A stretch of DNA of 23,736 bases from a virus. Shown one piece after another: positions 444-18,473 of the stretch. Location of the stretch: positions 1 through 23,736 of the IMG/VR virus record IMGVR_UViG_3300001750_000025; one strand, given 5' to 3'. The notes beneath the pieces are model-generated. The model saw only the letters and a program-made list of their open reading frames with translations. It did no database searches and had not been told where the DNA came from. Both the position numbers and the translations under genes were made by a program. The number at the start of each line of letters is the position of its first letter. Position 1 is the stretch's first letter.

Positions 444-479
444 TTTTCCATAATGGCAGTCGAATGCGGCGGAATTTTG
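444..479 (-). promoter_or_regulatory. Promoter-like conserved element, copy D
   Basis: Read leftward from 479 it begins CAAAATTCCGCCGCATTC and continues with ACTGCCATTAT. It matches the copy at 12138-12173 at 23 of the first 30 positions. It sits between the stop of the 495-695 gene and the AGGAGG of the 146-415 gene. The -10-equivalent bases (GGAAAA) are not sigma-70-like, so it may serve a phage-specific polymerase or activator. Confidence 0.5.
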
Positions 480-494
480 GCAGCCCACGCGGAT

Positions 495-695
495 CTATTT
501 ATCATCCATAGTGATGAGGCACACACCAACTAGGAACGGATATGCCGAGAAGCATAAAATCATGACCGCGACCAGCATCCCATATTTGTTCCCCATGAAG
601 GCCGCGAACCACCCGATCAGAATGATTGGGATTGCACAAGCGGCAACAGTCACTACAGATAATGCAGCCATCTTCATTGCTTTAATGAGCCTCAC
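495..695 (-). CDS. Small two-helix membrane protein
   Basis: 66 residues from a GTG at 695-693, beginning VRLIKAMKMAALSVVTV. I prefer this GTG to longer in-frame starts because GGAGGAG lies just before it and it overlaps the stop of the preceding gene as GTGA, a typical coupled start. Two hydrophobic stretches (about residues 9-28 and 35-57) are separated by a short GNKYG turn, and the tail ends in MDDK. This is a membrane protein with a holin-like size, but holin function is only a possibility: no lysin gene is visible beside it. Stop is TAG at 497-495. Confidence 0.6.
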   Translation of the reverse strand: MRLIKAMKMAALSVVTVAACAIPIILIGWFAAFMGNKYGMLVAVMILCFSAYPFLVGVCLITMDDK

Positions 696-814
696 AAACT
701 CCTCCAAAACATCACCGCAACGAAGACAAGCCCCGCACAAACAAATCCAACCCAAGTGACAGAACCCCACCACATAAGCATGGACATTCCCTCATTGACT
801 TGATGTTCAGGCAT
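692..814 (-). CDS. 40-residue single-helix membrane peptide
   Basis: The frame begins MPEHQVNEGMSMLMWWG and is mostly one hydrophobic helix rich in Val, Phe and Trp, ending FWRSL. The start at 814 is favoured over an in-frame ATG at 829 because AAGGA sits 7-8 nt before it; the upstream ATG has no ribosome site. Its TGA overlaps the GTG of the 495-695 gene. Together they look like a coupled pair of tiny membrane proteins. No family recognised. The minus strand carries the recurrent 10-mer TGCGGGGCTT at 728-737. Confidence 0.55.
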   Translation of the reverse strand: MPEHQVNEGMSMLMWWGSVTWVGFVCAGLVFVAVMFWRSL

Positions 815-825
815 GGTATTTTCCT

Positions 826-987
826 TCATAGGGTTATGAGGATTAGAATCCCCAATGCCATAATAATTGAGGCCATCAGAAAAGAGTTACCACCGCTATA
901 GATGTCTTTCTCGTTGTAGAGGGAGCCGCTAACCATAAAGAGAAATGCGGAGCCTACTAGAAGGAATATTGCTACAGCGGTGCTCAT
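826..987 (-). CDS. Small two-helix membrane protein
   Basis: 53 residues beginning MSTAVAIFLLVGSAFLFMV. Two hydrophobic helices (about residues 3-20 and 35-53) flank a polar loop with GSLYNEKDIYSGGNS. The start is uncertain: the ATG at 987 has only a weak GGATG 9-13 nt upstream, and an ATG at 1056 would add 23 residues but overlap the previous gene by 38 bp. It lies within the leftward run of small membrane proteins. Function unknown. Confidence 0.5.
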   Translation of the reverse strand: MSTAVAIFLLVGSAFLFMVSGSLYNEKDIYSGGNSFLMASIIMALGILILITL

Positions 988-1018
988 TTCATTCGCATCC
1001 AGAATCAGGGATTCTTTC

Positions 1019-1216
1019 TCAGATAGTTTCAATCGAATGGGATTTTGTTGGATCATCGTAGTAGCCGTTGGCTTTGAGCCAACCTGTCGCGGCCCACATG
1101 CTGTCAGCTTTGATTGGTTTTCCGTCAGACCGGTAGATAATCACAGGACTGATGGTTCCTTCAGCGACAAGGAAATTGTGGGTGGCAGTGTGCATTGAGT
1201 CATTGAGTTTTATCAC
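1019..1216 (-). CDS. Hypothetical protein, 65 residues
   Basis: Starts at a GTG (1216-1214) one base after the stop of the 1218-1505 gene; GGAATG lies about 5 nt upstream. The product begins MIKLNDSMHTATHNF when initiated with Met. It is a soluble, mixed sequence with two Trp close together (MWAATGWLKANGYYDD). An internal ATG at 1195 is an alternative start. Tight spacing on both sides supports expression from the same leftward transcript. No family recognised. Confidence 0.5.
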   Translation of the reverse strand: MIKLNDSMHTATHNFLVAEGTISPVIIYRSDGKPIKADSMWAATGWLKANGYYDDPTKSHSIETI

Positions 1217-1217
1217 G

Positions 1218-1505
1218 TTACATTCCGTTCAGGTAGGTGCATACAGCCATAACTATGGCTTCTGATGCAAGTTCCATATAGGGTCCAGAGTGATCCCCAC
1301 CCCATTCTGGTTTTGCAAAAGAGCAGGAACACTCTCGTTTGTCATTCGCGGTGACATTTATGATATGTCCCTCACCCTCCTCCCTCATGAGAGTGTCGCG
1401 AGCCCAAAGCCCCGCATCCACCACATCTTCTTTTATGTGTGTGGGGAGTCCGTCATACATCTCTTTTGCTTGTTTATATCTTGAATCCATCTTTTCATCC
1501 TTCAT
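1218..1505 (-). CDS. Hypothetical protein, 95 residues
   Basis: Begins MKDEKMDSRYKQAKEMYDG. The start at 1505 has AAGGA 4 nt upstream and forms an ATGA overlap with the stop of the 1502-1720 gene. The N-terminal half is charged and helical; the middle has a CSCSF pair, and the C-terminal part is helical (ELASEAIVMAVCTYLNGM). Two of the cysteines could bind metal, but there is no complete zinc motif. Function unknown. The minus strand carries TGCGGGGCTT at 1407-1416. Confidence 0.6.
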   Translation of the reverse strand: MKDEKMDSRYKQAKEMYDGLPTHIKEDVVDAGLWARDTLMREEGEGHIINVTANDKRECSCSFAKPEWGGDHSGPYMELASEAIVMAVCTYLNGM

Positions 1506-1720
1506 AATTCCTTAACCTCCACTTTAATAACTTCTGGTTCGGGAGACAGTTGGGGGACAAGCTGTGCCCACACATGGAGGATATCCTTGTCACTCCAGTC
1601 TCGCATTGCCATAACTCCACCCAAAACACATATCCCATTGACAATGGCGGATATTTTGGTTGGACCAACAGTCTTCATGTTGATCTCATCGCCCTGTTTG
1701 ATTGCGTATCCCTTAGACAT
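1502..1720 (-). CDS. Hypothetical protein, 72 residues
   Basis: Begins MSKGYAIKQGDEINMKTVG, with AGGTG about 9 nt before the ATG. The N-terminal half looks like a small beta-rich domain (hydrophobic and Gly residues alternating), and the C-terminus ends in an acidic/Val run (EPEVIKVEVKEL). It overlaps the upstream gene by 8 bp and the downstream gene by 4 bp, the normal pattern of this run. Not recognised. Confidence 0.6.
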   Translation of the reverse strand: MSKGYAIKQGDEINMKTVGPTKISAIVNGICVLGGVMAMRDWSDKDILHVWAQLVPQLSPEPEVIKVEVKEL

Positions 1721-1868
1721 GTGCTAAGCACCTGAGCATTGTCCCGAAAATACCCAAGAAAAAGAGAAGAAAGATGATCCATCCATTTTCTTTCATGCCA
1801 ACCTTTGAGGACATCCAACCGATGCCGCCACCAGCTATGACCATCATTAACAGAGACAATACCTTCAT
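1713..1868 (-). CDS. Small membrane protein, 51 residues
   Basis: Begins MKVLSLLMMVIAGGGIGWM. The ATG at 1868 was chosen because GGAGGAGG lies directly upstream and it overlaps the stop of the 1865-2014 gene as ATGA; longer in-frame extensions have no ribosome site. Two hydrophobic helices (residues 2-19 and 30-46) are joined by a basic loop (SSKVGMKENGW). Probably inner-membrane with both ends on one side. Function unknown. Confidence 0.65.
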   Translation of the reverse strand: MKVLSLLMMVIAGGGIGWMSSKVGMKENGWIIFLLFFLGIFGTMLRCLAHV

Positions 1869-2014
1869 GACCTCCTCCAAAGCATTCCATATCCAACTAA
1901 TGCAAAGAAGTAGCCAATTGCACCTATAATGAATTGGTCTGAACTGAGTGGTGCCATTTGCCACCCAAGAACTGCGGAGCCGGCAAACGCAAGAACGTAT
2001 GGGATGTACTTCAT
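1865..2014 (-). CDS. Small two-helix membrane protein, 49 residues
   Basis: Begins MKYIPYVLAFAGSAVLGW. AAGGAG lies about 7 nt before the ATG at 2014. Residues 4-20 and 29-44 are hydrophobic, the tail is basic (LWRRS). The gene starts a sub-cluster after a 268-bp gap and has a structured leader (hairpin at 2032-2072) just before its ribosome site, so it may head its own transcript or be a processed mRNA end. No family recognised. Confidence 0.65.
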   Translation of the reverse strand: MKYIPYVLAFAGSAVLGWQMAPLSSDQFIIGAIGYFFALVGYGMLWRRS

Positions 2015-2031
2015 GTCAATCTCCTTGTTAA

Positions 2032-2072
2032 GGGGGACTGGTTCACTGAACATCTCCTGTTCACAGTCCCCC
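2032..2072 (-). promoter_or_regulatory. Leader hairpin before the 1865-2014 gene
   Basis: A 9-bp perfect stem (GGGGGACTG at 2032-2040 with CAGTCCCCC at 2064-2072) encloses a second 6-bp stem (TGAACA at 2047-2052, TGTTCA at 2058-2063). It ends a few nucleotides before the AAGGAG of the downstream gene. There is no T-run, so it looks like an mRNA leader structure rather than a terminator. Confidence 0.55.
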
Positions 2073-2142
2073 AGCATTGAGTCTCCCTCAATACCAAGAT
2101 GATGCAACCCTCACATCATGTAAAAACCTACCGACGCGACCA

Positions 2143-2171
2143 GTCATGCGCTATACATAGTTATAAATGAC
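2143..2171. repeat. Nested inverted repeat in a gene gap
   Basis: GTCAT (2143-2147) and ATGAC (2167-2171) form outer arms around CTAT (2151-2154) and ATAG (2157-2160). The surrounding gap, 2073-2282, has no convincing gene; on the minus strand it also holds GCCGCATT (2227-2220), the core of the promoter-like element without its flanks. It may be an operator. Evidence is symmetry only. Confidence 0.3.
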
Positions 2172-2282
2172 CTCCGGACCCATTTACGATCCTTACAGTC
2201 CTCTGATGGGTTTGGTCGTAATGCGGCATTCCACTAAATTATGTATCTGTTGTGTTTTGGGGAGTTCTACAGGTGTTTCATC

Positions 2283-2537
2283 TTACTTCTCCTTCTTAAG
2301 CTCCTCAATCTTTGCAGCCGCTTCATCAAGCGTCATTCTGATCTTCTTGTTGAGATTTACAACCCATGTGATCATTGCCAGAAACCACATGATACCCATG
2401 ATCCACTGCATTGCTGAGGATTCAATGTAGACAGCAAAGATGATCATGGCCACCAAAGCGCCAAACCAAGCTATGGAATGGAGATACCCTTCCCAATAGT
2501 TTTCGACTATGACGATAGTATGATCTTCCTTTGGCAT
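2283..2537 (-). CDS. Membrane protein with two helices and charged tail
   Basis: 84 residues beginning MPKEDHTIVIVENYWEG. The ATG at 2537 has AGGAGA 6 nt upstream; the longer frame upstream of it runs through a hairpin and has no ribosome site. Two hydrophobic segments (about residues 21-36 and 43-62) are followed by a helical, charged C-terminus (DEAAAKIEELKKEK), likely cytoplasmic. It is the first gene of the leftward run, 84 bp after the promoter-like element at 2621-2656. Function unknown. Confidence 0.65.
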   Translation of the reverse strand: MPKEDHTIVIVENYWEGYLHSIAWFGALVAMIIFAVYIESSAMQWIMGIMWFLAMITWVVNLNKKIRMTLDEAAAKIEELKKEK

Positions 2538-2557
2538 GGTTGTCTCCTTGGTTGGGT

Positions 2558-2610
2558 GCCCCCACATGCTTCGCTCAGGGAGGGAAGAGCACTTTGAAAC
2601 ATGTGGGGGC
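2558..2610 (-). promoter_or_regulatory. Strong leader hairpin before the 2283-2537 gene
   Basis: An 11-bp perfect stem (GCCCCCACATG at 2558-2568 and CATGTGGGGGC at 2600-2610) contains an inner GCTC/GAGC stem (2573-2576, 2587-2590). It lies between the promoter-like element and the AGGAGA site of the first leftward gene. No T-run follows on either strand. It could stabilise the 5' end or control translation. Confidence 0.6.
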
Positions 2611-2620
2611 TGCTGCAAGC

Positions 2621-2656
2621 CTGTCGATCCTGCCAGCCAAATATGGCGAAAAAATG
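2621..2656 (-). promoter_or_regulatory. Promoter-like conserved element, copy E
   Basis: Read leftward from 2656: CATTTTTTCGCCATATTT, then GGCTGGCAGGAT. It matches the copy at 7676-7711 at about 19 of 30 positions, including TTTCGCC and the TG-CA-AT spacing. A TTGACA (2674-2669, minus strand) lies just upstream but has no good -10 at normal spacing. It points at the leftward run. Confidence 0.4.
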
Positions 2657-2694
2657 ACCGCCCACGCCTGTCAATTGTCTAAGCATCTGATATA

Positions 2695-2723
2695 CTGACA
2701 TTAGATGGAGGCACTTATGGAAT
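2695..2723 (+). promoter_or_regulatory. Candidate sigma-70-like promoter
   Basis: CTGACA (2695-2700), a 17-bp spacer and TGGAAT (2718-2723) would start transcription near 2730, directly at the first of the three TTTCAC repeats and upstream of the 2778-3314 gene. The -10 is weak (4 of 6). Confidence 0.35.
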
Positions 2724-2731
2724 TTAACCTG

Positions 2732-2777
2732 TTTCACGTTGTTTTAGCTTATTTCACCTTAGTTATGGTCTTTTCAC
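2732..2777 (+). repeat. Three TTTCAC repeats with exact 20-bp period
   Basis: TTTCAC occurs at 2732-2737, 2752-2757 and 2772-2777; the first and third extend to TTTCACGT. The 20-bp spacing places all three on nearly the same helix face. They lie between the rightward promoter candidate and the start of the small-terminase-like gene, as expected for a tandem operator or an iteron-type binding site. Confidence 0.5.
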
Positions 2778-3314
2778 GTGACTAAGCCCCGCACAACCCT
2801 AAAAACCCCGGATGATATGCTAGTAGAAGACAAGAACCCTGCTTCCAAAACACTAGTGGTGACAAGTGGCCTGACTGAGTGTCAAGAGATGTTCTGTAAG
2901 CACATCACATCAGGTGCCACTCAACTTGAGGCATACCGATCAGCCTACAATACCTCCATGGCAGACTCGGCAGTCTCGGTGAAAGCCTCAGAGTTAAGGC
3001 ACAAGCCACACATTGATGCCAGAATCAAGGAACTCATTGATAATAAAGAGAAAAGACTGAAGGAGATACAATACCGCAGCCATGAGAGATGGTATGAGAG
3101 TATTTGGAAGGAAGCTGACAACGGAGATACCTCATCGGCTAGAGTGAGTGCCTTAAGGGAGATTGGTAAAGCAATCGGCATAACTAAGCCAAACGAAGAG
3201 ATTATAAAGCATGAGACTGCTGTTGAGCTTGCTGCGGAGCTTAGCGAGAGGCTGTCTGATTTAGGAATAAATATAAATGTCAATGAGCTAACTGAAAGGG
3301 AAGAAGATGTATAA
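2778..3314 (+). CDS. Putative terminase small subunit
   Basis: 178 residues from a GTG at 2778, or 165 from an in-frame ATG at 2817; neither has a strong ribosome site. Residues 32-90 match the layout of small-terminase DNA-binding domains: a QEMFCKHITSG segment, then ATQLEAYRSAY and KASELRHKPHIDARIKEL, i.e. a helix-turn-helix followed by the usual R/K-rich helix. Residues 120-138 (SARVSALREIGKAIGI) match the later conserved helix of this group. The protein would recognise the packaging site and load the large subunit. It is about 15.5 kb from the large terminase gene, which is unusual, so another phage DNA-binding role remains possible. Confidence 0.6.
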   Translation: MTKPRTTLKTPDDMLVEDKNPASKTLVVTSGLTECQEMFCKHITSGATQLEAYRSAYNTSMADSAVSVKASELRHKPHIDARIKELIDNKEKRLKEIQYRSHERWYESIWKEADNGDTSSARVSALREIGKAIGITKPNEEIIKHETAVELAAELSERLSDLGININVNELTEREEDV

Positions 3315-3453
3315 ATATGTTGGGGGCACTCATGTGTTCTACACAAAGTTATTTGGGGGATTGATATACATTGGATCAAGCAGCTTCTGGAAATCTCTGA
3401 AGAACTTCTTCTTAGCTATACCAGAGCATCGGAGACAGATGAATGATCGATCA
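3307..3453 (+). CDS. Small hypothetical protein, 48 residues
   Basis: Starts MYKYVGGTHVFYTKLFGG; the ATG overlaps the last 8 bp of the preceding gene (ATGTATAA), with GGAAG upstream. It has a weakly hydrophobic, Gly/aromatic-rich N-terminal half and a basic C-terminus (EHRRQMNDRS). It overlaps the next gene by 11 bp. The overlap pattern supports it, but the short length leaves doubt. No family recognised. Confidence 0.45.
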
Positions 3454-3631
3454 TGAATGGGAAGAATATAAGGCCCAGCAAGATAGATTCAGATGGCAGA
3501 GGGAGAAAGAAAAGAAGCGCTCCTCAAGCATTATCTTCTGCCTAATGTTTCTGCCTTTATGGCCATTGGCTTTGGCATTGATTGTTGAATACACCTGTCA
3601 GGATATAGCTGATTGGTGGAGATCGAAGTGA
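3443..3631 (+). CDS. Coiled N-terminus plus one membrane helix
   Basis: 62 residues beginning MIDHEWEEYKAQQDRFRWQ. A strongly charged helix (residues 1-27, ending EKEKKRSSS) is followed by a hydrophobic segment (28-49) and a short tail. GGAG lies 8 nt before the ATG. A terminator-like hairpin follows at 3640, so this is probably the last gene of the small-terminase transcript. The layout is that of a small membrane-anchored cytoplasmic protein; function unknown. Confidence 0.6.
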   Translation: MIDHEWEEYKAQQDRFRWQREKEKKRSSSIIFCLMFLPLWPLALALIVEYTCQDIADWWRSK

Positions 3632-3639
3632 TCTCATGC

Positions 3640-3660
3640 AGAATGCTAACGCATTCTTTC
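3640..3660 (+). terminator. Rho-independent-like terminator
   Basis: AGAATGC (3640-3646), loop TAAC, GCATTCT (3651-3657), followed by T-rich TTC. A 7-bp perfect stem just after the stop codon at 3631. Confidence 0.55.
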
Positions 3661-3849
3661 TCAAGCCCCGCACCCATTCTTCATTCAAACTGATTTAAAT
3701 AGGATGCTCTAGTCCCCAGCTTCACCCATAGTTGCGCATGAAGGTATGCGGGTATATACGCGCTCCTATACGCGTACTGCGCGCACATCACCCGCGTATG
3801 CTCGACAGTTTTCGTGTGGGTCGCCAGCTTTCCCTGAAAGCTGACCGCT
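3658..3849. other. Gene-free GC-alternating palindromic stretch
   Basis: The gap 3632-3987 (356 bp) contains no convincing gene. This part carries the AAGCCCCGCA motif (3663-3672), two TATACGCG copies 12 bp apart (3755-3762, 3767-3774), several CGCG/GCGCGC steps, and an inverted pair GCGGGT (3748-3753) with ACCCGC (3790-3795). It could be a protein-binding or replication region. Nothing identifies it with certainty. Confidence 0.35.
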
Positions 3850-3870
3850 GCCACATTCTTGCCACAATAT
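3850..3870 (+). promoter_or_regulatory. Promoter-like element, short copy C
   Basis: GCCACATTCT followed by TGCCACAATAT resembles the downstream half of the copies at 7676 and 12138, with a 2-nt deletion between the blocks and no CAAAATT upstream. It lies ahead of the structured leader of the 3988-4605 gene. Confidence 0.35.
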
Positions 3871-3888
3871 CACCTTGAAGATTCCCAA

Positions 3889-3971
3889 ATCCAGTCTCAA
3901 TCCTGCCACATTAATCTGGATGATTGGAGTGGTCGGCGGCAATCAGCCCGCCAATCAAGCCCCTTTAGGGG
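3889..3971 (+). promoter_or_regulatory. Structured leader of the 3988-4605 gene
   Basis: Three possible stems follow each other: ATCCAG (3889-3894) with CTGGAT (3916-3921); TGATT(GG) (3921-3927) with (CC)AATCA (3951-3957) around GGCGG/CCGCC; and CCCC-TTTA-GGGG (3960-3971). The last hairpin ends a few bases before the AAAGGAG site. A similar ATCCAG...CTGGAT pairing opens the leader at 7724. Confidence 0.45.
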
Positions 3972-3987
3972 ATCAAAGGAGACTATC

Positions 3988-4605
3988 ATGTCAGACAAAA
4001 TCAAATTTCCGTTCAATGGTCGTGTCAACAAGAACCTGCGCAAATCCAAGCGTAATGGTGGCGGGACCAAGTGTGCCGAAGGTACAGCCGTGGTGATCCG
4101 TGGCCAACGTGAGAGCAAGTGGAAGGAAGGCGACTTCTACCTTATCGGTACCGTCGTCGAGACTGGTGAAGAACTCTCGTTCTCGCCGGGTTCCATTGAT
4201 CACGTTGGCGGCAAGGTCTCGGAGAAGTATTCAGCGCTTACAGACGGCAACGAAGCGGACTTTGTCCTGCCCGGTATGCATATTGCAACCAGTGAAACTG
4301 GCAAGCAGGTCACCATCGCCACCTATATCGGCGAGGACATGATCAAGGGCCGCCGGGTGTTCCAGAGCGGTTATCCGCTTTCACAGGTCAAGGTCCACGA
4401 CAACCCGAATGCCCAAGGCATTGGCCTCTATCAGGTGCCGGGTTGGATCGTTGACCAGACGGTCAATGACACCTATAGCGAGCGTCTTGAAGAGGGCATG
4501 ACACCAGCTGACTTGCTGGCATCCCTCCGGGATTTGTCTGATCAGACATGTGCCGAGCAAAAGCTCGACAATCCTGCCGACGAAGACGAAGCCGAAGCGG
4601 CTTAA
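3988..4605 (+). CDS. Unknown protein with acidic tail, GC-rich codons
   Basis: 205 residues beginning MSDKIKFPFNGRVNKNLRK. GGAG lies 7 nt before ATG 3988; the open frame extends back to 3859 but that part is leader sequence. The N-terminus is basic and Gly-rich, the middle beta-rich with many Gly/Val, and the end is acidic (ADEDEAEAA). An acidic tail of this kind is known from single-stranded-DNA-binding proteins such as T7 gp2.5, but no OB-fold signature is evident. Third positions are clearly richer in G and C than in the genes to the right, which suggests strong expression or a different origin. It has its own promoter-like element and leader. Confidence 0.7.
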   Translation: MSDKIKFPFNGRVNKNLRKSKRNGGGTKCAEGTAVVIRGQRESKWKEGDFYLIGTVVETGEELSFSPGSIDHVGGKVSEKYSALTDGNEADFVLPGMHIATSETGKQVTIATYIGEDMIKGRRVFQSGYPLSQVKVHDNPNAQGIGLYQVPGWIVDQTVNDTYSERLEEGMTPADLLASLRDLSDQTCAEQKLDNPADEDEAEAA

Positions 4606-4617
4606 CTACCAACTGGG

Positions 4618-4637
4618 TGTGGGGCGAAAGCCCCGCA
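4618..4637 (+). promoter_or_regulatory. GAAA-capped hairpin before a ribosome site
   Basis: TGTGGGGC (4618-4625), tetraloop GAAA, GCCCCGCA (4630-4637): 8 bp with one G-U pair. It follows the stop at 4605 and precedes the AGGAGGG site of the next gene. The stable tetraloop and lack of T-run suggest an mRNA leader or processing structure; it could also end part of the upstream transcript. Confidence 0.55.
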
Positions 4638-4658
4638 TCCTCTTTAGGAGGGAAGATT

Positions 4659-4856
4659 ATGAAACTGTTTATTATTGTGATGGTACTGTGGGCTGCTGTT
4701 ATAGGCAGCCTGACGGGCAAGCGCCTAGCAGATGAGCGCAATCACCTTGAGCGGGTCAAGCGCATTGAGATGCTGCAACGCCAATTCATATTGCGGGAGT
4801 TGATGCATATTTACAGCAAGCCCTGTAATCCACTCACCCCATGTATGGAGGCTTAG
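4659..4856 (+). CDS. Membrane-anchored small protein, 65 residues
   Basis: Begins MKLFIIVMVLWAAVIGSL: an N-terminal hydrophobic helix (3-18) followed by a basic helical domain (GKRLADERNHLERVKRIEML) and a C-terminal Cys pair (KPCNPLTPC). AGGAGGG lies 6 nt before the ATG, which identifies the start despite a longer open frame. The helix could be an uncleaved signal anchor. Size and layout are spanin-like, but a spanin pair is not shown here. The next gene starts 2 bp after its stop. Confidence 0.65.
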   Translation: MKLFIIVMVLWAAVIGSLTGKRLADERNHLERVKRIEMLQRQFILRELMHIYSKPCNPLTPCMEA

Positions 4857-4858
4857 GT

Positions 4859-5008
4859 ATGTATATCATCCACATCAAACAAACTCGCAAGTGGTCTACA
4901 CATCCATTGAGTGCAGAAACCATGGATGTCCTGCTACCCTATGGCGATCTACTTACTGCCTCATCTGAATGCGTTTGGATAGTTCCCAACACGATTAGCC
5001 CCGCATGA
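4859..5008 (+). CDS. Small hypothetical protein, 49 residues
   Basis: Begins MYIIHIKQTRKWSTHPLSAE. GGAGG in the end of the previous gene sits 7 nt before the ATG, giving a coupled start 2 bp after the preceding stop. It is a soluble sequence with two Trp and one Cys. The codons are C-rich like the neighbours on both sides and unlike the G-rich genes after 5900. Not recognised. Confidence 0.5.
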   Translation: MYIIHIKQTRKWSTHPLSAETMDVLLPYGDLLTASSECVWIVPNTISPA

Positions 5009-5092
5009 ATGCCGCATACTCAGGTCCGACCCCTGATGTGTGGTATATCCCCAACCCCCCAACTACATCCGCACCAATAGGAGAACATACAA

Positions 5093-5284
5093 ATGTACAA
5101 AGACAACATACACCAATACACAGACATCCTGAAGGACAACGGCATAACCGTACACGAGAGGTATGGAGATACATACCGTGTCAGATACACCAACGATGAA
5201 GGTGTAACGAGAGATGAAATGACATCATCAAAGGCGCTGCATCAGATGATTGATCGGCTTCAGCGCCTATCTCCTCAAGGTTAA
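5093..5284 (+). CDS. Small hypothetical protein, 63 residues
   Basis: Begins MYKDNIHQYTDILKDNGIT. AGGAGA lies 7-8 nt before the ATG. An alternative frame from 5005 overlaps but is Pro/His-rich and has no ribosome site, so this one is preferred. The order is a helix, a beta-rich centre (ERYGDTYRVRYTNDEG), then a helix (SSKALHQMIDRLQRL), a compact domain of unknown type. A hairpin follows the stop directly. Confidence 0.6.
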   Translation: MYKDNIHQYTDILKDNGITVHERYGDTYRVRYTNDEGVTRDEMTSSKALHQMIDRLQRLSPQG

Positions 5285-5301
5285 GGGGTAAGTATTACCC
5301 C
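5285..5301 (+). terminator. Hairpin directly after a stop codon
   Basis: GGGGTAA (5285-5291), loop GTA, TTACCCC (5295-5301): 7 bp with a 3-base loop, starting at the base after the TAA at 5284. No T-run follows, so efficiency is uncertain. It marks the left edge of the 5285-5907 gene-free region. Confidence 0.45.
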
Positions 5302-5760
5302 ACAGTGCGGGGAAATAGGTCGTTAACATAGCGATACTAAGCCCCGCCGCCGTGGTCACTAACGTTCCCCCACCACTGTATGTGGTATCTATCTCCCCCC
5401 TCACATCCCCCGCATCACACACACGTGCACACCACCCATGACACCGTCGCGGGTAGCGCATACGTGCGACAACCTGTCATCAAACACAACATGTAGTAGG
5501 TAGTCTCCCATTTCACGGGGGTTAGACCCCTGATTAGGGGCATGACATACCACATGTAGTAGGTGAGACTGGAACAAACCGTGAACAACTGTCGGAATGC
5601 TGTCCCAAACCAGCCAGAACAAAACGTGAACACCGGCCCAAGGGAGACCCCCCACCCCCCCTATTTCAGGGCCGCCGCTCCCACCGTGCGCATAGTATTC
5701 CACACCAACGATTACCCTATTTCACATTCAAAACAGCGCGCGAGGATTTTTTATGCCAGA
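5302..5760. other. Repeat-rich gene-free region, possible origin or control region
   Basis: The 623-bp gap 5285-5907 has no convincing gene on either strand. This part is strongly C-rich on the + strand and carries short hairpins (for example CCCC-TGATTA-GGGG near 5527-5540), two GTGAACA copies (5581-5587, 5626-5632), a 16-bp direct repeat and runs of C. To the right the sequence becomes AT-rich and then G-rich on the + strand. This combination resembles phage replication origins, but no known origin motif was recognised. Confidence 0.35.
5486..5564 (+). repeat. 16-bp direct repeat, 63-bp period
   Basis: ACAACATGTAGTAGGT (5486-5501) and ACCACATGTAGTAGGT (5549-5564) differ at one base. The 63-bp spacing equals six helical turns, so both copies face the same side of the DNA. 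The sequence between them includes the CCCC/GGGG hairpin. Confidence 0.5.
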
Positions 5761-5766
5761 AATAAA

Positions 5767-5795
5767 TTGACAAGCCCCGAAAAATTTTGTAGAAA
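5767..5795 (+). promoter_or_regulatory. Candidate sigma-70 promoter
   Basis: A perfect TTGACA (5767-5772), 17-bp spacer and TAGAAA (5790-5795, 4 of 6). It sits in AT-rich DNA at the right end of the gene-free region and points at the long rightward gene series. A second -10-like TATAAT lies at 5884-5889 without a clear -35. Confidence 0.5.
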
Positions 5796-5907
5796 AAATC
5801 CAACCTTGTCGTCTTGGCAATCCGAGGCGTTAAGTTGCAACCAAGGTGAGGCGGGGGGTGTCAGAAAAGATGCTCCTCGCCGCTATAATAAGGAAGGTAA
5901 ACCCCGC

Positions 5908-6485: not shown

Positions 6486-6847
6486 ATCTTTTCAGTCTTG
6501 GTTGGTTCAGAAGCTCTTCTGGTCAGGTACTGCCATGGAAGATTGATTGTGATGCCCTGACTTCGAAAGACTGGCACTGCATTGCCACTATCATTGCCCA
6601 TTCTATCCAGTTCTCAGAGGTTGAGGGGGTTCCTAAGGGTGGGTTGGCCTTAGCAGATGCTTTAATGGAGTATAGGAGTGAGGGTGCGGGGCTTTTGATT
6701 GTCGATGATGTCCTTACTACCGGCAAGAGCATGGAGGAATTGAGGGGAGATAGGGATGCAACTGGGATTGTTTTGTTTGCTAGAGGGTCTTGTCCGGACT
6801 GGGTGAAGCCCCTTTTCACATTAGATTGGGAATTTAGGGGATATTAA
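6482..6847 (+). CDS. Phosphoribosyltransferase-like protein
   Basis: 121 residues beginning MNLFSLGWFRSSSGQVLPW. Residues 71-83 (LLIVDDVLTTGKS) fit the PRPP-binding signature of type I phosphoribosyltransferases, with the two acidic residues and the TTGKS loop intact. Upstream, VPKGGLALADAL (50-61) resembles the region around the flexible loop of orotate phosphoribosyltransferases. Family members transfer ribose-5-phosphate from PRPP to a base. At 121 residues it is much shorter than a full enzyme (about 180-210), so it may be a minimal enzyme or a PRPP/nucleotide-binding remnant. Coupled to the upstream gene by ATGA. Substrate cannot be told. The 10-mer TGCGGGGCTT occurs at 6685-6694. Confidence 0.75.
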   Translation: MNLFSLGWFRSSSGQVLPWKIDCDALTSKDWHCIATIIAHSIQFSEVEGVPKGGLALADALMEYRSEGAGLLIVDDVLTTGKSMEELRGDRDATGIVLFARGSCPDWVKPLFTLDWEFRGY

Positions 6848-7069: not shown

Positions 7070-7072
7070 GAG

Positions 7073-7261: not shown

Positions 7262-7270
7262 GAGGGTACA

Positions 7271-7411
7271 GTGTTTAAACTAATGTTGGCTTATGTCATA
7301 GAGAATTCAGTCCGTAAGTTCAGGCGTAGTCTGTGCGGAGTTTTGGGTCACAAGTTTGAGGGGCACCCCGATAGGAAGAGAAAATGCGCTAGATGCGGGG
7401 GTTGGAAATGA
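7271..7411 (+). CDS. DUF1660-like small zinc protein
   Basis: 46 residues from GTG 7271 (beginning VFKLMLAYVIENSVRKFRR) with AGAGGG 4 nt upstream; an ATG at 7283 is an alternative. The pattern LCGVLGHKFEGHP...KCARCGGW matches my memory of the phage DUF1660 family: a Cys, a conserved GH, a short gap, then C-x2-C-G at the end. Family function is unknown. It lies between two similar zinc-ribbon-like genes. Confidence 0.55.
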   Translation: MFKLMLAYVIENSVRKFRRSLCGVLGHKFEGHPDRKRKCARCGGWK

Positions 7412-7432
7412 GGGAAGAAATAATCTCTGATT

Positions 7433-7660
7433 ATGGATGGGAATGAAATGACCATTAAGGATATTTTAAGAAAGCCATTGGATTTAGTGAATCAGCGCTA
7501 TATCTGCGCTCATCTAGATCATGAAGTCCAACAGTTTAGAAGAGTTGTCCAGCATACCAGCGAGGGCGACGTTGTGGCATCTGGTTCTCATGTGGTTTGT
7601 CTGGATTGCGGCAAGGTTATGACAGTTCTGTCGAAAGAGACGAAGGTTGAAGCCCCTTAG
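7433..7660 (+). CDS. Small zinc-ribbon-like protein
   Basis: 75 residues beginning MDGNEMTIKDILRKPLDL. An ATG at 7448 (the sixth codon) is an equally possible start, with GGGA upstream. YICAHLDHEV and VVCLDCGKV give a C-x-H ... C-x2-C metal site like that in 7073-7261. A terminator-like hairpin and a promoter-like element follow, so it ends this transcription unit. Function unknown. Confidence 0.6.
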   Translation: MDGNEMTIKDILRKPLDLVNQRYICAHLDHEVQQFRRVVQHTSEGDVVASGSHVVCLDCGKVMTVLSKETKVEAP

Positions 7661-7662
7661 TT

Positions 7663-7697
7663 GCGGGTGTCCCGCCAAAATTTCGCCGAATTTTTTT
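7663..7697 (+). terminator. Terminator-like hairpin overlapping the next promoter element
   Basis: GCGGG (7663-7667), loop TGT, CCCGC (7671-7675), starting 2 bp after the stop at 7660. A second weak stem AAAATT/AATTTT and a seven-T run (7691-7697) follow and belong also to promoter-like copy A, so end and start signals are interleaved. Confidence 0.45.
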
Positions 7698-7711
7698 GCC
7701 ACAATTATAAT
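7676..7711 (+). promoter_or_regulatory. Promoter-like conserved element, copy A
   Basis: CAAAATTTCGCCGAATT, a T-run, then TTGCCACAATTATAAT. It shares 28 of 35 positions with copy B at 12138-12173. TATAAT (7706-7711) would be a perfect -10; the -35-equivalent TCGCCG is poor. It precedes a structured leader and the 7872-8087 gene. Confidence 0.55.
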
Positions 7712-7723
7712 ATGTGAATTCCC

Positions 7724-7855
7724 CATCCAGTGATCGACCCCCATTGAGGCCCTTAGCAAGGGAATGGTAGCTCTGCCCCGTTTAAGCAAGCCAAGAGAGA
7801 GTGGGGACTGGATGAGGAAGAACCTGCCGGTGGGAGTAGCTGCTCTCATCGGCAG
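7724..7855 (+). ncRNA. Structured mRNA leader, candidate cis-regulatory RNA
   Basis: CATCCAGT (7724-7731) pairs with ACTGGATG (7807-7814) and encloses a hairpin with CCATT/AATGG and CCCTT-AGC-AAGGG (7741-7767) and a possible CCCC/GGGG pairing. A separate 13-bp uninterrupted stem (7824-7836 with 7843-7855, two G-U pairs, loop TAGCTG) ends 4 nt before AAGGAG. This could be a riboswitch-like or protein-bound leader; no known class recognised. An open frame (from 7764) crosses it, so coding cannot be fully excluded. Confidence 0.5.
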
Positions 7856-7871
7856 TCCCAAGGAGATTACT

Positions 7872-8087
7872 GTGAACAAATACTGGAAGTCAGAAGCGCG
7901 TCATTGGCGGAATGAGGCCATATATCAGTTCGTCATGAATTATCGTCCTATAGGCCCTACTGACGGGGAAAGGGAATTGCGACAAGCTATATCCCATTAT
8001 GGGATTGAGGACCACGAGTTTGACCGTGAAAAGGTCAAACAGAGGCTTGTTGATTCCGGGGTTAAGCCCAAAGTGGAGTTGGCTTAA
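7872..8087 (+). CDS. Hypothetical protein, 71 residues
   Basis: Starts at GTG 7872 (VNKYWKSEARHWRNEA) with AAGGAG 6 nt upstream; the in-frame extension to 7764 is the structured leader. Helical and basic N-terminal half, then a charged helical C-terminus (EFDREKVKQRLVDSGVK). The same GGAGATTAC spacing sequence precedes the start of the 12190 gene, which also follows a copy of the promoter-like element. Function unknown. Confidence 0.65.
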   Translation: MNKYWKSEARHWRNEAIYQFVMNYRPIGPTDGERELRQAISHYGIEDHEFDREKVKQRLVDSGVKPKVELA

Positions 8088-8245
8088 TGGTTGACCCCAA
8101 AGACATTGTTTTAACCCCATTACAAGAAAAAATCCTGATTGCTATCCACGACGAGGAAACCGTCCCAGCGACCAACGAGAATATTGAGGCGCTGAACTTC
8201 CTGATGGCTATTGGGTTTATAGAGAAGAAGGAGGAGAAGTCTTGA
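8087..8245 (+). CDS. Hypothetical protein, 52 residues
   Basis: The ATG at 8087 overlaps the TAA of the preceding gene (TAATG). Begins MVDPKDIVLTPLQEKILIA; the order of a short helix, NENIEALNFLMAIGFIEKKEEK, looks like a small helical, possibly winged-helix-type domain. A GGAGG site for the next gene lies in its last codons. Function unknown. Confidence 0.6.
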   Translation: MVDPKDIVLTPLQEKILIAIHDEETVPATNENIEALNFLMAIGFIEKKEEKS

Positions 8246-8592
8246 AGGAATGGCCTGAAGATCCCATTGAGACAGTGGACCTTGAAGATTTGGTGGAACC
8301 AATAGTTAAAAGTCTTTTGTCAGCTTATGATATTGAACGAAAATCTTTATCAGCTATTCCCTATTCAGGATACAACATTGGTGGAGAGGAATTGATATCT
8401 GGTTCATCCCCAGAGGAGATGCTGAGACCGGAGGATCTTAGAATAGCATGGCAGAATGGCAAAATGGCTTATCACGCTCTCTTCAGCATTGCGGTGCAAT
8501 TGGGGATCGAACAGGGTCGTAGGCTGGAGAGGAAAAGATGGTTTTCTCTCATTGATGCTGCCAAGACGTCTTTGGAGGGTATGAAGAAATGA
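8242..8592 (+). CDS. Hypothetical protein, 116 residues
   Basis: Starts at a TTG (8242) overlapping the previous stop as TTGA; the preceding AAGGAGGAG is one of the best ribosome sites in the window and decides the start. Begins with Met-KEWPEDPIETVDLEDLVEP. The N-terminal half is acidic; the C-terminal half is helical (AYHALFSIAVQLGIEQGRRLERKRW). Coupled to the next gene by ATGA. Not recognised. Confidence 0.65.
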   Translation: MKEWPEDPIETVDLEDLVEPIVKSLLSAYDIERKSLSAIPYSGYNIGGEELISGSSPEEMLRPEDLRIAWQNGKMAYHALFSIAVQLGIEQGRRLERKRWFSLIDAAKTSLEGMKK

Positions 8593-8828
8593 AAACAACT
8601 ATTACCAGAGTGTATTTCAGACACTACGCAGACGAGAGCCAGATAGGCAGCATATTTGGGTATAGCCTTCAACATGTCCCCAGAAAAGATGATGTTGTAA
8701 AGATTGACGAAACTGGGGACGCTAAATGGATGGTCAGACAAATTGATCACGAAGTAAACAAATCTGGTGGAACTTGTGTTCACGATATCCTTGTGGGAGT
8801 TACGGCATTCCCTTCAACGAAATTCTAA
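8589..8828 (+). CDS. Hypothetical protein, 79 residues
   Basis: Begins MKTTITRVYFRHYADESQIG. ATGA overlap with the preceding gene and GGAGGG upstream. Predominantly beta-type sequence (VKIDETGDAKWMVRQIDHEV), with one Cys-His pair near the end (TCVHDILVG). It could be a small beta-barrel. Function unknown. Confidence 0.6.
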   Translation: MKTTITRVYFRHYADESQIGSIFGYSLQHVPRKDDVVKIDETGDAKWMVRQIDHEVNKSGGTCVHDILVGVTAFPSTKF

Positions 8829-8849
8829 GGTGGATTGGAGAATGATCTA

Positions 8850-9053
8850 ATGGGAATTCAGGATGATGTGTTTGATATACGTGCGGAGCTTGAAGAAAAA
8901 TCCACCCCAGAGGTGGTTCAAGCATTTGATGAGTTTACCGAATGGGCTTGGAAGCAGGAGTATGACTTAGGGACTGCTCGAGGGATTCTTATTGATATTG
9001 GGAGAGGAATTATGTCTTTAAAGAAGATAGAAAAGATGATGAAAGACGGTTAG
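8850..9053 (+). CDS. Hypothetical helical protein, 67 residues
   Basis: Begins MGIQDDVFDIRAELEEKST. The ATG at 8850 has GGAG 9 nt upstream; a TTG at 8835 would add five residues but sits too close to its AAGGTGG. Helical, acidic with two Trp in the middle (FDEFTEWAWKQEYDLG) and a Lys-rich end. Function unknown. Confidence 0.55.
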   Translation: MGIQDDVFDIRAELEEKSTPEVVQAFDEFTEWAWKQEYDLGTARGILIDIGRGIMSLKKIEKMMKDG

Positions 9054-9057
9054 AAAA

Positions 9058-9192
9058 ATGGATAGCATGATTGTCACTTTCATTTTCTCTGGAATATTTA
9101 TTCTTGCAATGAAAAATAACTGGGAATTTACTGCCTTAGTATTCGGCATTGGAACCTTAATTGTAGGTTGTGAAACGGCTGGTGTGAGATGA
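9058..9192 (+). CDS. Two-helix membrane peptide, 44 residues
   Basis: Begins MDSMIVTFIFSGIFILAMK; a second hydrophobic stretch (TALVFGIGTLIVG) follows a short NNWEF loop. It starts 4 bp after the preceding stop and its TGA overlaps the ATG of the next gene (ATGA). The ribosome site is weak. Fits the many tiny membrane proteins of the window; no function known. Confidence 0.55.
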   Translation: MDSMIVTFIFSGIFILAMKNNWEFTALVFGIGTLIVGCETAGVR

Positions 9193-9536
9193 ACCTGTAC
9201 AGCATTGTCAAAACTAAAAATCGTGTTGGTTATCATGCTGGAATGATTCCTTCTGGCACCCGTGGAATGATTGTTGAGGTATATGCTGACGGCAAGGCTT
9301 GTGAGGTTGAGTTTCATGATGGCATAACAGTGACTATGGATTCAACCAATGTAGAGGTTGTAGAGGATCATGTTGGTGTCCTTAAAGACAAGATAGATGG
9401 CTTGGAGTCAGAGTTGTATTGTCTTATTGCGGCTATAGCTAGGAGATACAACGGTGATGCTGAGATAGAAACTCTCTATCGATTTGTTGAGGACAATTTT
9501 CCCAAGGCTTGGGCAGAACTAACAAGGAGAGATTAA
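9189..9536 (+). CDS. Hypothetical protein with DUF4926-like N-terminus
   Basis: 115 residues beginning MNLYSIVKTKNRVGYHAG. The stretch IPSGTRGMIVEVYADG then ACEVEFHDG (about residues 20-46) resembles the small beta-barrel of DUF4926-type proteins, which carry G-x-V-V-E-V ... G ... Y-E-V-E-F. The rest is helical (GVLKDKIDGLESELYCLIAA), with a charged end. Coupled by ATGA to the preceding gene. The assignment is from memory of the pattern only; the family itself has no certain function here. Confidence 0.6.
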   Translation: MNLYSIVKTKNRVGYHAGMIPSGTRGMIVEVYADGKACEVEFHDGITVTMDSTNVEVVEDHVGVLKDKIDGLESELYCLIAAIARRYNGDAEIETLYRFVEDNFPKAWAELTRRD

Positions 9537-9541
9537 ATGGG

Positions 9542-9715
9542 GTGGGGAATAGCAGAAGAAGGATACACATCCTTCGGATGTTTCTATTTGCTGGCCTTTT
9601 TATAGGCTTAGGTCTTTCTGACATTGGGCGTGGCCTAAAGTGTATTGCTGAGGTTTTAAAGGAGAGAAAAGATGAGAAAGACATACGCAGGAATTGGCAG
9701 TCGCCAGACACCTGA
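9542..9715 (+). CDS. Small membrane protein overlapping the next gene
   Basis: A 57-residue frame from GTG 9542: basic N-terminus (VGNSRRRIHILRM), one hydrophobic helix (FLFAGLFIGLGL), then a charged helix. AAGGAGAG upstream could serve either this GTG (10 nt) or an ATG at 9537 in another frame that gives only 22 residues. An ATG at 9578 is a shorter alternative, following an AAGGAT/ATCCTT inverted repeat. It overlaps the SLOG-like gene by 44 bp, so its last 14 residues may be incidental. Confidence 0.4.
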   Translation: MGNSRRRIHILRMFLFAGLFIGLGLSDIGRGLKCIAEVLKERKDEKDIRRNWQSPDT

Positions 9716-10154
9716 TCGGATCCTTAAGATAATGAAGCAAATGGCTTCTGAGTATGAGGATTCTGGTTGGAAGCTACGTACTGGTGGAGCGGATGGAGCT
9801 GACAATGCCTTTGCAAGCGGTGTTCGGTTAAGATATAATGGAACGGTTTTTCTTCCTTGGACAGGATTTAATAACTGGGACGATAGTCTTTACACCGTAG
9901 CTAATCCAAATGATGATGGTTTTAAGATTGCAGAGAAATATCATCCAGCATGGGGTTGTTGCTCGCCGGCAGTTAAAAGACTCCATGCCAGAAACTCTCA
10001 TATTATTTTGGGATATGACTGTAAATTTCCAGCCGATCTTGTCATTTGTTGGTGCCCAAAAACTCCTCTAGGAGAATACAAAGGCGGAACTGCTCAAGGA
10101 CTCAGGATAGCCGAGGACTACAACATCCCAATAATCAATCTATGGGGTTTGTGA
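9672..10154 (+). CDS. SLOG-like nucleotide-binding protein
   Basis: 160 residues beginning MRKTYAGIGSRQTPDRILK. AGIGSR (6-11) and TGGADGADNAF (37-47) are the paired Gly-rich motifs of the SLOG/DprA-like Rossmann group; DLVICWCPK (122-130) and GGTAQGLRIA (138-147) complete the conserved core as in many tailed-phage relatives. These proteins are thought to bind nucleotides or nucleotide-derived ligands; some SLOG domains in bacterial immunity proteins sense NAD-derived signals. Here the partner and ligand are unknown. AAGGAG 7 nt upstream fixes the start. It is a full-length phage-type protein. A role in countering host nucleotide signalling is only an inference. Confidence 0.75.
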   Translation: MRKTYAGIGSRQTPDRILKIMKQMASEYEDSGWKLRTGGADGADNAFASGVRLRYNGTVFLPWTGFNNWDDSLYTVANPNDDGFKIAEKYHPAWGCCSPAVKRLHARNSHIILGYDCKFPADLVICWCPKTPLGEYKGGTAQGLRIAEDYNIPIINLWGL

Positions 10155-10399
10155 TGACCATAATTATTTATCTCTTAGTTGCAGTTGTCCTATTTGGGTT
10201 ATCTCTAGGTTTTTTCACTACTTGTGAGGATTTCGAGGGAGATGATGCTGTTTTTTTGTTTTCAATCTGCCTGTTTTGGCTTCCGGTTCTGGTTTTAGCT
10301 ATTGTTGCGGGTCTTGTGTGGTGTTGTGTTGCGCCATTCTATTTCATGGGGAAATATGTCGGGGACCAAATGAAAGGAAAAGAAGATGAGACTAAGTGA
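10154..10399 (+). CDS. Two-helix membrane protein, 81 residues
   Basis: Begins MTIIIYLLVAVVLFGLSLG. The ATG overlaps the preceding stop by one base (TGATG). Hydrophobic segments at about 2-19 and 32-58 are separated by an acidic loop (TCEDFEGDDA). The C-terminus is charged (GDQMKGKEDETK). The loop probably faces the opposite side from the charged tail. Unknown function. Confidence 0.6.
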   Translation: MTIIIYLLVAVVLFGLSLGFFTTCEDFEGDDAVFLFSICLFWLPVLVLAIVAGLVWCCVAPFYFMGKYVGDQMKGKEDETK

Positions 10400-10784
10400 A
10401 GGAATGAAGGCCACTTACAAGGTGGATTACCTTGTTGAAACTCTGAAGAAGTTCAGAGAGGAGCATCGCTCCGACTACATCAAAGCGGTAGAGGTCTACC
10501 ACCGTGATCTTAAGAAAGAGCTTTCCGAGTTCTCTAAAAAGATCAACAAATCTAACAAAGATATAAAGTCCCCGGAAGACGTCAAGCCTGTTATGGTTAG
10601 GATTGACCTTGCTACGCCGGAAAACAAGGTGAAGGAGTATGACAAACTCATTAATGTTTTGGACAATAGTGTAGGGGATGATGTTGAACTTGACTCGGTA
10701 GATGCCAATCACATCATCAATGATGACTGGGACTGGATAAAGATGGCCAAGTTCTCAAATGCGGTCTATAGTTCTCGGTACTAA
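10386..10784 (+). CDS. Conserved phage-type hypothetical protein
   Basis: 132 residues beginning MRLSEGMKATYKVDYLVET. AAAGGAAAAG precedes the ATG. Order: N-terminal helix with LKKFREEHRSDYIKAVEVYH, basic helix, then KVKEYDKLINVLDNS-VGDDVELD and DDWDWIKMAKFSNAVY at the end. I remember small phage and mobile-element proteins with the same sequence of motifs (YD-x2-I-x2-L, ELD, W-x-W, SN-x2-Y), always without known function. Overlaps the preceding gene by 14 bp. Confidence 0.65.
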   Translation: MRLSEGMKATYKVDYLVETLKKFREEHRSDYIKAVEVYHRDLKKELSEFSKKINKSNKDIKSPEDVKPVMVRIDLATPENKVKEYDKLINVLDNSVGDDVELDSVDANHIINDDWDWIKMAKFSNAVYSSRY

Positions 10785-10855
10785 GGGTGTTCCGTGGGGC
10801 GGGGCCGGATTCTAAACCTAAGCCCCGGCTGGTTCGATTCCAGCAATGCCCGCCA
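10785..10855 (+). pseudogene. tRNA-like sequence with decayed middle
   Basis: GGGTGTT (10785-10791) pairs with AATGCCC (10845-10851), with two G-U pairs; a complete T arm (GCTGG-TTCGATT-CCAGC, 10828-10844), a G discriminator and an encoded CCA (10853-10855) follow. The middle 36 nt do not form normal D and anticodon arms; CGGGGC pairs with GCCCCG around a 16-nt loop containing TTCTAAA. It begins at the base after the upstream stop. Best read as a degenerate tRNA or a tRNA-like structure. Confidence 0.5.
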
Positions 10856-10867
10856 ATGAGGTGTGAA

Positions 10868-11104
10868 ATGAAGATTAAAGATTTGATCAGAAAATTGAAA
10901 AAACTACCTCCGGAAACTAAGGTTTTGATGTCTAGAGATTCAGAGGGTAACGGGTTTTCATATCTTTACGAGATTTCAGATGGTTTGAAATTCAACGGCG
11001 AAGATATTGGCTTCCCTGAATTAACAGATGAATTAAGGAGTCAGGGCTACAACAAGGAGGATATAATAGAGGGGGAAGAGGTTATTTGCCTCTGGCCTGC
11101 ATAG
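10868..11104 (+). CDS. Small hypothetical protein of a common phage type
   Basis: 78 residues beginning MKIKDLIRKLKKLPPETKV. The ATG at 10868 has GAGGTG 4-5 nt upstream; the longer frame from 10787 crosses the tRNA-like sequence and is not used. MKIKDLI-x-L-x-KL-P-x-T-x-V-x2-S-x-DSEGNGF is a pattern seen in many small phage proteins of unknown role. The remainder is acidic with a Cys near the end. Confidence 0.65.
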   Translation: MKIKDLIRKLKKLPPETKVLMSRDSEGNGFSYLYEISDGLKFNGEDIGFPELTDELRSQGYNKEDIIEGEEVICLWPA

Positions 11105-11106
11105 AA

Positions 11107-11193
11107 ACCCCGGAGGGGTGTAATAGGAGCGAAGCGACTATGACATAGATGCCGATCACCACCTTTTCCAGTTTTAACCTTTGTTTTAACTGG
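11107..11193 (+). promoter_or_regulatory. Two hairpins in the 11105-11204 gap
   Basis: ACCCC-GGA-GGGGT (11107-11119) directly follows the stop at 11104 and may be a weak terminator. CCAGTT (11168-11173) and AACTGG (11188-11193) form a second stem that ends at the GGAG ribosome site of the 11205 gene. No gene seen between them. Confidence 0.45.
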
Positions 11194-11204
11194 AGAAAAG
11201 AAAA

Positions 11205-11543
11205 ATGAGCATTGAACTTAAAATCAAAATCAAACACCTTGCCGAAGAGGCCCGCATAATCCGTAAAGAGGAAAAGAAGGCCAAAGAGCGCAGGGACTAC
11301 CCAACCCTAGATAAACTCCACCATCATCGAATATTTGTGGTTAGGAGAGCGGCAAGAGAAACGCAGCTTGCTTATGCATTTCTGCGTGGTCGTGATTATC
11401 TGACAACGGAGAAGTGTAAGAGAGATAATCGACCAACACCGTATTCCTCAACAAGGAAAGAGGTCGAGCGACTAGTCAAGAAATATGGTGAGCTTGAATC
11501 CGAAACGGTCAGTGGATGTTTATCTAACTGGATCGGGTATTAA
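11205..11543 (+). CDS. Conserved phage-type basic helical protein
   Basis: 112 residues beginning MSIELKIKIKHLAEEARIIR. Highly basic and helical in the first half (KEEKKAKERRD), then HHHRIFVVRRAARETQLAYAFLRGRDY. Phage proteins with the ordering K-x-K-I-K-x-LA-x-EARIIRKEE ... LR-x-H ... LAY-x-FLRGR are familiar to me from many tailed phages, without an assigned function. GGAG lies about 9 nt upstream, just after the hairpin. Confidence 0.65.
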   Translation: MSIELKIKIKHLAEEARIIRKEEKKAKERRDYPTLDKLHHHRIFVVRRAARETQLAYAFLRGRDYLTTEKCKRDNRPTPYSSTRKEVERLVKKYGELESETVSGCLSNWIGY

Positions 11544-11564
11544 TCCTTAGTGGGGCTCGGAGAG

Positions 11565-11590
11565 ACAATCTTTGATTGTGTATTATTTTT
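11565..11590 (+). terminator. Terminator between convergent genes
   Basis: ACAATC (11565-11570), loop TTT, GATTGT (11574-11579), then GTATTATTTTTT. It closes the rightward unit ending at 11543. The T-run covers the stop codon region of the leftward 11583-11798 gene. Confidence 0.65.
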
Positions 11591-11798
11591 TCTCCGGGTC
11601 CCAGAACCCTTTTATTGAATCCATATAGGCATCGCAGGAGGCGCACTGAACATGTCCGTCTTCGTAGAGAAAGAATGTCTGACTCTCACAATTACATACC
11701 CATACTCTATGCCACTCAGCTTCTTCAGAAACAATCTCTGATTGTGCATACCCATTGGGTATCTTTTTCTTAGTTTTGAAATCAATGATGTCACCCAC
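11583..11798 (-). CDS. Leftward small zinc-binding protein
   Basis: 71 residues from GTG 11798, with GGAGG 6 nt upstream. Begins VGDIIDFKTKKKIPNGYAQ (Met at the start). WVCNCESQTFFLYEDGHVQCASC contains a C-x-C ... C-x2-C site; small phage proteins with this kind of FxLxxDG-x-VxCxxC arrangement are common, and bind zinc. It is the only leftward gene between 2537 and 23107. Its divergent neighbour starts at 11855. Confidence 0.65.
   Translation of the reverse strand: MGDIIDFKTKKKIPNGYAQSEIVSEEAEWHRVWVCNCESQTFFLYEDGHVQCASCDAYMDSIKGFWDPEKK
11731..11745. repeat. Second copy of the ACAATC palindrome
   Basis: ACAATC-TCT-GATTGT at 11731-11745 is nearly identical to the terminator stem ACAATC-TTT-GATTGT at 11565-11579, 166 bp away, but lies inside the leftward gene and has no T-run. 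It may be a binding site or a coincidence of duplication. Confidence 0.35.
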
Positions 11799-11854
11799 AG
11801 CAATCCTCCATAGAGATACATACCTGAAAAGGTATTTCTAAGGGAAATTCTACC

Positions 11855-12115
11855 ATGAAATATAGAGTGAAGATAAAGGCTAAAGCAGAAGACGTTATTC
11901 GTGTAGCTGATCGCCTTGACGATGAGATTGAGGACTTCCATAAAGGCTCTGTGCTGGTTAGAACAAGAGCAGACTTGGGGATTGTTTCAGCAGAAATTAT
12001 GAAAGATTACGCTCATATTGGATATGCAATGAATGACGCTGCTCTAATTTCTGGGCTTATGATGGGCAATGACTGTCATATAAACTCAGTGATAATAACC
12101 TTCAATAAGGGATGA
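11855..12115 (+). CDS. Hypothetical protein, 86 residues
   Basis: Begins MKYRVKIKAKAEDVIRVAD. GGGAAA lies about 8 nt upstream and a short ATACC/GGTAT hairpin precedes it. The sequence alternates beta strands (MKYRVKIKA, GSVLVRTRA, INSVIITFNKG) and helices, like a small ferredoxin-like fold. It is not recognised. Its stop is followed by promoter-like copy B. Confidence 0.6.
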   Translation: MKYRVKIKAKAEDVIRVADRLDDEIEDFHKGSVLVRTRADLGIVSAEIMKDYAHIGYAMNDAALISGLMMGNDCHINSVIITFNKG

Positions 12116-12137
12116 TTCTTAATCACGGGTGAGCCGT

Positions 12138-12173
12138 CAAAATTTTGCCGCATTCTGTTGCAATAATTAAAAA
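12138..12173 (+). promoter_or_regulatory. Promoter-like conserved element, copy B
   Basis: CAAAATTTTGCCGCATTCTG followed by TTGCAATAATTAAAAA. It matches copy A at 28 of 35 positions. The -35-equivalent is TTGCCG and the -10-equivalent TAAAAA. It ends 16 nt before the start codon at 12190, so the leader must be very short; the ribosome site is GGAAGGAG. Confidence 0.55.
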
Positions 12174-12459: not shown

Positions 12460-12473
12460 GGAGTGAAACGACC

Positions 12474-14966: not shown

Positions 14967-15000
14967 CGGTTTTAACCACAACTGATCGAGGAGTTTTAAC

Positions 15001-18317: not shown

Positions 18318-18318
18318 T

Positions 18319-18394: not shown

Positions 18395-18395
18395 C

Positions 18396-18471: not shown

Positions 18472-18473
18472 AA

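Follow-up and report, generated by a model that had tools for sequence, protein, structure and literature searches.

The phage fragment and its gene content

The DNA analyzed here (the window) is an entire IMG/VR virus record (23,736 bases), a podovirus fragment whose genome is incomplete. Its large terminase is approximately 51% identical to those of phage 023Pt_psg01 and Pelagibacter phage HTVC027P, and its portal protein is 41-43% identical to those of HTVC027P, HTVC023P and Planktothrix phage Pag-Yong1. A GcrA-like protein is encoded on the plus strand at 17713-18189 (PF07750, E = 7e-16) and aligns to Caulobacter GcrA in PDB 7ye1 (residues 5-148, E = 6e-8); no GcrA match was found in nine relatives. 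The sequence GANTC occurs at 70 sites in the window against 113 expected, with at least 70 sites in 100 of 100 shuffles, and such depletion would be expected for a phage whose host carries a CcrM methylase. Because a GcrA-like protein is encoded and GANTC is depleted, the host of this short-tailed phage is probably an alphaproteobacterium. Looking for the host through the portal protein gave no match in GTDB genomes. The reading frame at 15001-16404 specifies an SPFH/Band 7 family protein (PF01145, E = 1e-9), which also matches phrog_11908 (E = 1e-80), a family of unknown function. In an Rfam search, tRNAs alone passed the gathering score; at 10787-10855 there is a tRNA-like stretch, missed by ARAGORN, whose T-arm and 3' CCA resemble those of the tRNAs at 18244-18547 (repeat family D2).

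Four copies of an intergenic element

An element of approximately 49 letters is present in four diverged copies, two on the plus strand (A, 7663-7711, and B, 12125-12173) and two on the minus strand (D, 492-444, and E, 2669-2621). The places and strands of all four had been given in a first-pass annotation of this DNA, and its pairwise identities (A-B 28/35, D-B 23/30, E-A about 19/30) were reproduced. Over 48 bases, A and B agree at 37 positions, B and D at 35, and A and D at 34, while in six dinucleotide-shuffled windows the best 48-base pair anywhere reached only 31-32 identities. We also constructed leave-one-out matrices spanning -13 to +38, counted from the C of CAAAATT. Each of the left-out copies A, B and D was the top remaining site in the window, scoring 32-48 bits against shuffle maxima of 13-18 (A, 32-36 bits with a shuffle maximum of 15; B, 45-48 bits; D, 34-41 bits), and the nhmmer E values of these copies were 8e-14, 1e-14 and 9e-15, respectively. 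Copy E is the most diverged: when left out, it scored 19.0 bits with the matrix of A, B and D, a narrow margin over the maximum of 17.8 in 60 shuffles, and with a shorter 0 to +36 matrix it fell below the shuffles (11.2 vs 17.5); its nhmmer value of 2e-12 is in-sample. The case for E therefore depends on the -13 to -1 block together with its place and direction. With the four-copy matrix, again in-sample, the copies scored 55-65 bits and the next site in the window -0.8 bits. The repeat family formed by A, B, D and E is thus real and beyond chance.

Two further copies had been suggested. The one placed at 3850-3870 (C, plus strand) is found by no ungapped matrix; a gapped nhmmer profile reaches E = 0.2 over 3812-3868 by allowing a 16-nt insert, so that C is a possible degenerate copy. 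The GCCGCATT half-copy at 2227-2220 on the minus strand does exist, without the remainder of the element.

All four copies are intergenic and each points at a gene start, as had been proposed, and a matrix scan of the window gave no hits inside genes, whereas equal numbers there would speak against a promoter family. According to a manually drawn gene map, non-coding DNA makes up 11% of the window, and 7.5% of positions leave room for a 48-nt element entirely within a gap; the chance of finding four of four copies in gaps is roughly 3e-5, a figure as approximate as the map. The largest non-coding gap (5285-5907, 623 nt) has no copy.

Each element aims at a start codon that is provided with a Shine-Dalgarno sequence. 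Copy A precedes GTG 7872 with a leader of approximately 160 nt, and E precedes ATG 2537 with a leader of approximately 83 nt; B and D are closer to their genes, with ATG 12190 lying 16 nt and ATG 415 about 28 nt from the respective predicted +1. The leader of A contains stem-loops at 7719-7855 (RNA fold z = -3.2), the second of which (7824-7855) lies directly before the Shine-Dalgarno sequence, and the leader of E contains a 15-bp stem-loop at 2558-2610 on the minus strand (z = -4.0), likewise ahead of the Shine-Dalgarno sequence. Strong leader stem-loops after A and E are expected if the elements are where transcripts start.

The window also contains other repeats. An inverted 48-base match between 985-1032 (minus) and 7403-7450 (plus) has 37 identities, as strong as A-B; here the beginning of the gene near 7433 is similar to the interior of the minus-strand gene 826-1056. 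The inverted repeat AATCnnnGATT, which recurs with flanks, has five exact matches (0.8 expected), at 1003-1013, 7422-7432, 11567-11577, 11733-11743 and 22977; in four copies the arms are extended to 6 bp, and changes in one arm are matched in the other (A/T, C/G, G/C). Two copies are inside predicted genes. The 9-mer AGCCCCGCA occurs 9 times (0.1 expected), at 729, 1408, 2785, 3664, 4629 and 4997 on the plus strand and at 6685, 18780 and 22950 on the minus strand, so that copies up to 4997 are all plus and those from 6685 on all minus. At 4615-4641 it forms one arm of a strong stem-loop ahead of a Shine-Dalgarno sequence.

Structure of the element

The alignment of the four copies has 23 invariant columns, in the order GnGTGnnCnG, then CA...TT..GCC..ATT, then TG..A..AT. 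The first of these blocks extends the element further 5' than previously annotated, and no copied flank is present past about -20 or +35. The 3' block, TGn-[CA]AnnAT, is at a fixed place in A, B, D and E and is weakest in E. It can be read as an extended -10, in which T, G, A, A and T at -15, -14, -11, -8 and -7 are invariant in every copy, an assignment that was made after the alignment had been seen and does not count as an independent test. In A the predicted extended -10 is TGC-CACAAT (7697-7705), which would place the transcription start near 7712; the same geometry gives TGC-AATAAT in B (12159-12167), TGC-CATTAT in D (458-450, minus) and a poor TGG-CAGGAT in E (2635-2627, minus). The first-pass annotation considered the -10 equivalent good only in A. 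A TATAAT is indeed seen in A, but the block common to all four copies lies six bases upstream of it.

No -35 hexamer accompanies this block. Positions -35 to -30 read AAAATT (ATTTTT in E) and never TTGACA, which is matched at no more than 3 of 6 positions at spacings of 15-19 in the four copies. In its place, a conserved block covers roughly -45 to -20, with the sequence GTGnSCnGYCAAAATTYYGCCgnATT. Since conservation runs through the spacer as far as -45, a second protein may contact the DNA.

The element itself shows no folded or structured RNA by RNA folding and no dyad symmetry, being asymmetric. No GANTC lies within the four elements, and the CtrA box TTAAn7TTAA occurs at one place in the window (7455), away from any of them.

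Searches in other genomes

Neither IMG/VR nor GTDB genomes nor sequenced relatives yielded a complete copy of the element. Exact-pattern scans of IMG/VR and GTDB genomes with consensus versions, which are blind to copies as diverged as E, gave isolated partial matches, none spanning the element. A matrix scan of 109 fetched loci gave a best score of 12.0, compared with 11.7 for the reversed matrix, and copy A plus its leader gave no credible match in a search for distant DNA similarity. A repeat in HTVC023P (12471-12537 and 14928-15042), with an AAAATTTT core in common, forms two clusters on one strand and was not counted as a homologue.

The relatives have repeated sites of their own. Pag-Yong1 (L027) carries at least 14 copies of the palindrome GGTTCAGnCTGAACC; TATAGTCnGACTATA is repeated in L063, L097 and L099, GTAGAAGTCnGACTTCTAC in L044, and TTACTGTCnGACAGTAA in L068. 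Many of these lineage-specific palindromes lie close before a Shine-Dalgarno sequence, and the sites in the four IMG/VR contigs L044, L063, L068 and L099 are upstream of the gene for the large terminase. Multi-copy sites particular to one lineage are thus a recurrent feature of this phage group.

A proposed promoter class and its alternatives

We propose, with somewhat better than even confidence, that A, B, D and E are a phage-specific promoter class used by host sigma70 at an extended -10 together with a further factor. The proposal draws on four intergenic copies that aim at gene starts, the lack of copies in genes and the fixed extended -10, and also on the leader stem-loops after A and E and the repeated sites near gene starts in several relatives; the support comes from one incomplete genome. 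Host sigma70 RNA polymerase would bind the extended -10 (TGn plus [CA]AnnAT) and, with the -35 hexamer missing, would need a further DNA-binding factor contacting the stretch between roughly -45 and -20. Four groups of genes, on both strands, might in this way be turned on together. Against this reading, the -10 of E is poor (CAGGAT) and, as the site of one activator, the conserved block is long. A phage-specific promoter or activator-site family, as first suggested from the sequence, is accordingly still the best description of the repeats, but the dedicated phage polymerase offered along with it is disfavoured by the searches described below.

The elements could instead be operators of a phage repressor that overlap weak host promoters and allow them to be silenced together. 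We regard this as unlikely. A position over the promoter region would suit a repressor equally well, and the repeated palindromes near gene starts in the relatives are typical of dimeric regulators. The element here, however, is without dyad symmetry, no palindrome with 7-bp arms recurs in the window, and conservation extends to the extended -10 positions, which a repressor site would not need.

A fixed two-part site without TTGACA is also what might be expected if a phage sigma factor or an alternative sigma factor of the host read these promoters with no separate activator. That the -10 block suits ordinary sigma70 makes this improbable, as does the search for sigma70 region 4, which gave no match in the window and one weak, sub-cut-off match in a single relative. 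It is similarly doubtful that the copies are non-regulatory, i.e., borders of inserted gene cassettes, or recombination or replication sites that came to lie in gaps by chance. A and D do start 2 nt past the stop codon of the preceding gene, but the lack of copied flanks argues against this reading, and the direction matches the following gene in four of four copies. Promoters of a single-subunit phage RNA polymerase are slightly less probable still. Long conserved blocks before genes would fit, and the polymerase could be encoded in the part of the genome that is missing, but PF00940 (the T7-type RNA polymerase) has no match in the window, in five complete relatives or in four further IMG/VR relatives under conditions that find the polymerase of T7 itself at 1e-109. 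The element is also roughly double a T7 promoter in length, and its 3' block agrees with a sigma70 extended -10.

Under the preferred reading, in which sigma70 acts with a further factor, the GcrA-like protein is an attractive, unproven candidate cofactor. A more specific version, in which this protein binds the -45 to -20 block without GANTC methylation and steers the host sigma70 polymerase, is a long shot; if true, a host cell-cycle cofactor would be recast as a phage-specific promoter switch. A GcrA homologue has been reported in phage phiCbK, with its role only speculated on (PMC7987155), and the promoter class, if real, would provide a testable role for a GcrA-like protein carried by a phage; what such proteins do in phages has so far been speculation (PMC7987155). 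The HTVC023P-type podoviruses, which are abundant (PMC9599517) and whose promoters we did not find described, would likewise gain a phage-specific promoter class.

Comparison with known systems

The elements most likely represent a promoter class of a known kind and fairly ordinary phage regulation. They resemble the GcrA-dependent sigma70 promoters of the Caulobacterales in that the window encodes a sigma70 cofactor of the GcrA family, but known activation by GcrA needs methylated GANTC in the promoter (PMC7987155) and the four elements have none. The palindromes of the relatives are likewise lineage-specific, multi-copy and near gene starts, and likewise found among the genes upstream of the large terminase; they are 14-19 bp long, whereas the element here is asymmetric and approximately 49 nt. 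T7-type promoters share with it the presence of several copies of one conserved sequence before genes, but the element is about twice as long, occurs on both strands and has a sigma70-like -10. In T4 middle promoters, MotA and AsiA act with host sigma70 at promoters that have a -10 and no usable -35, and a phage factor reads a block at approximately -30. The likeness to the element lies in the predicted -10 for host sigma70, the absence of a usable -35 and another conserved block, which here would have the corresponding role; the block in the element is the longer of the two, covering about -45 to -20, and has no known sequence relation to the MotA box.
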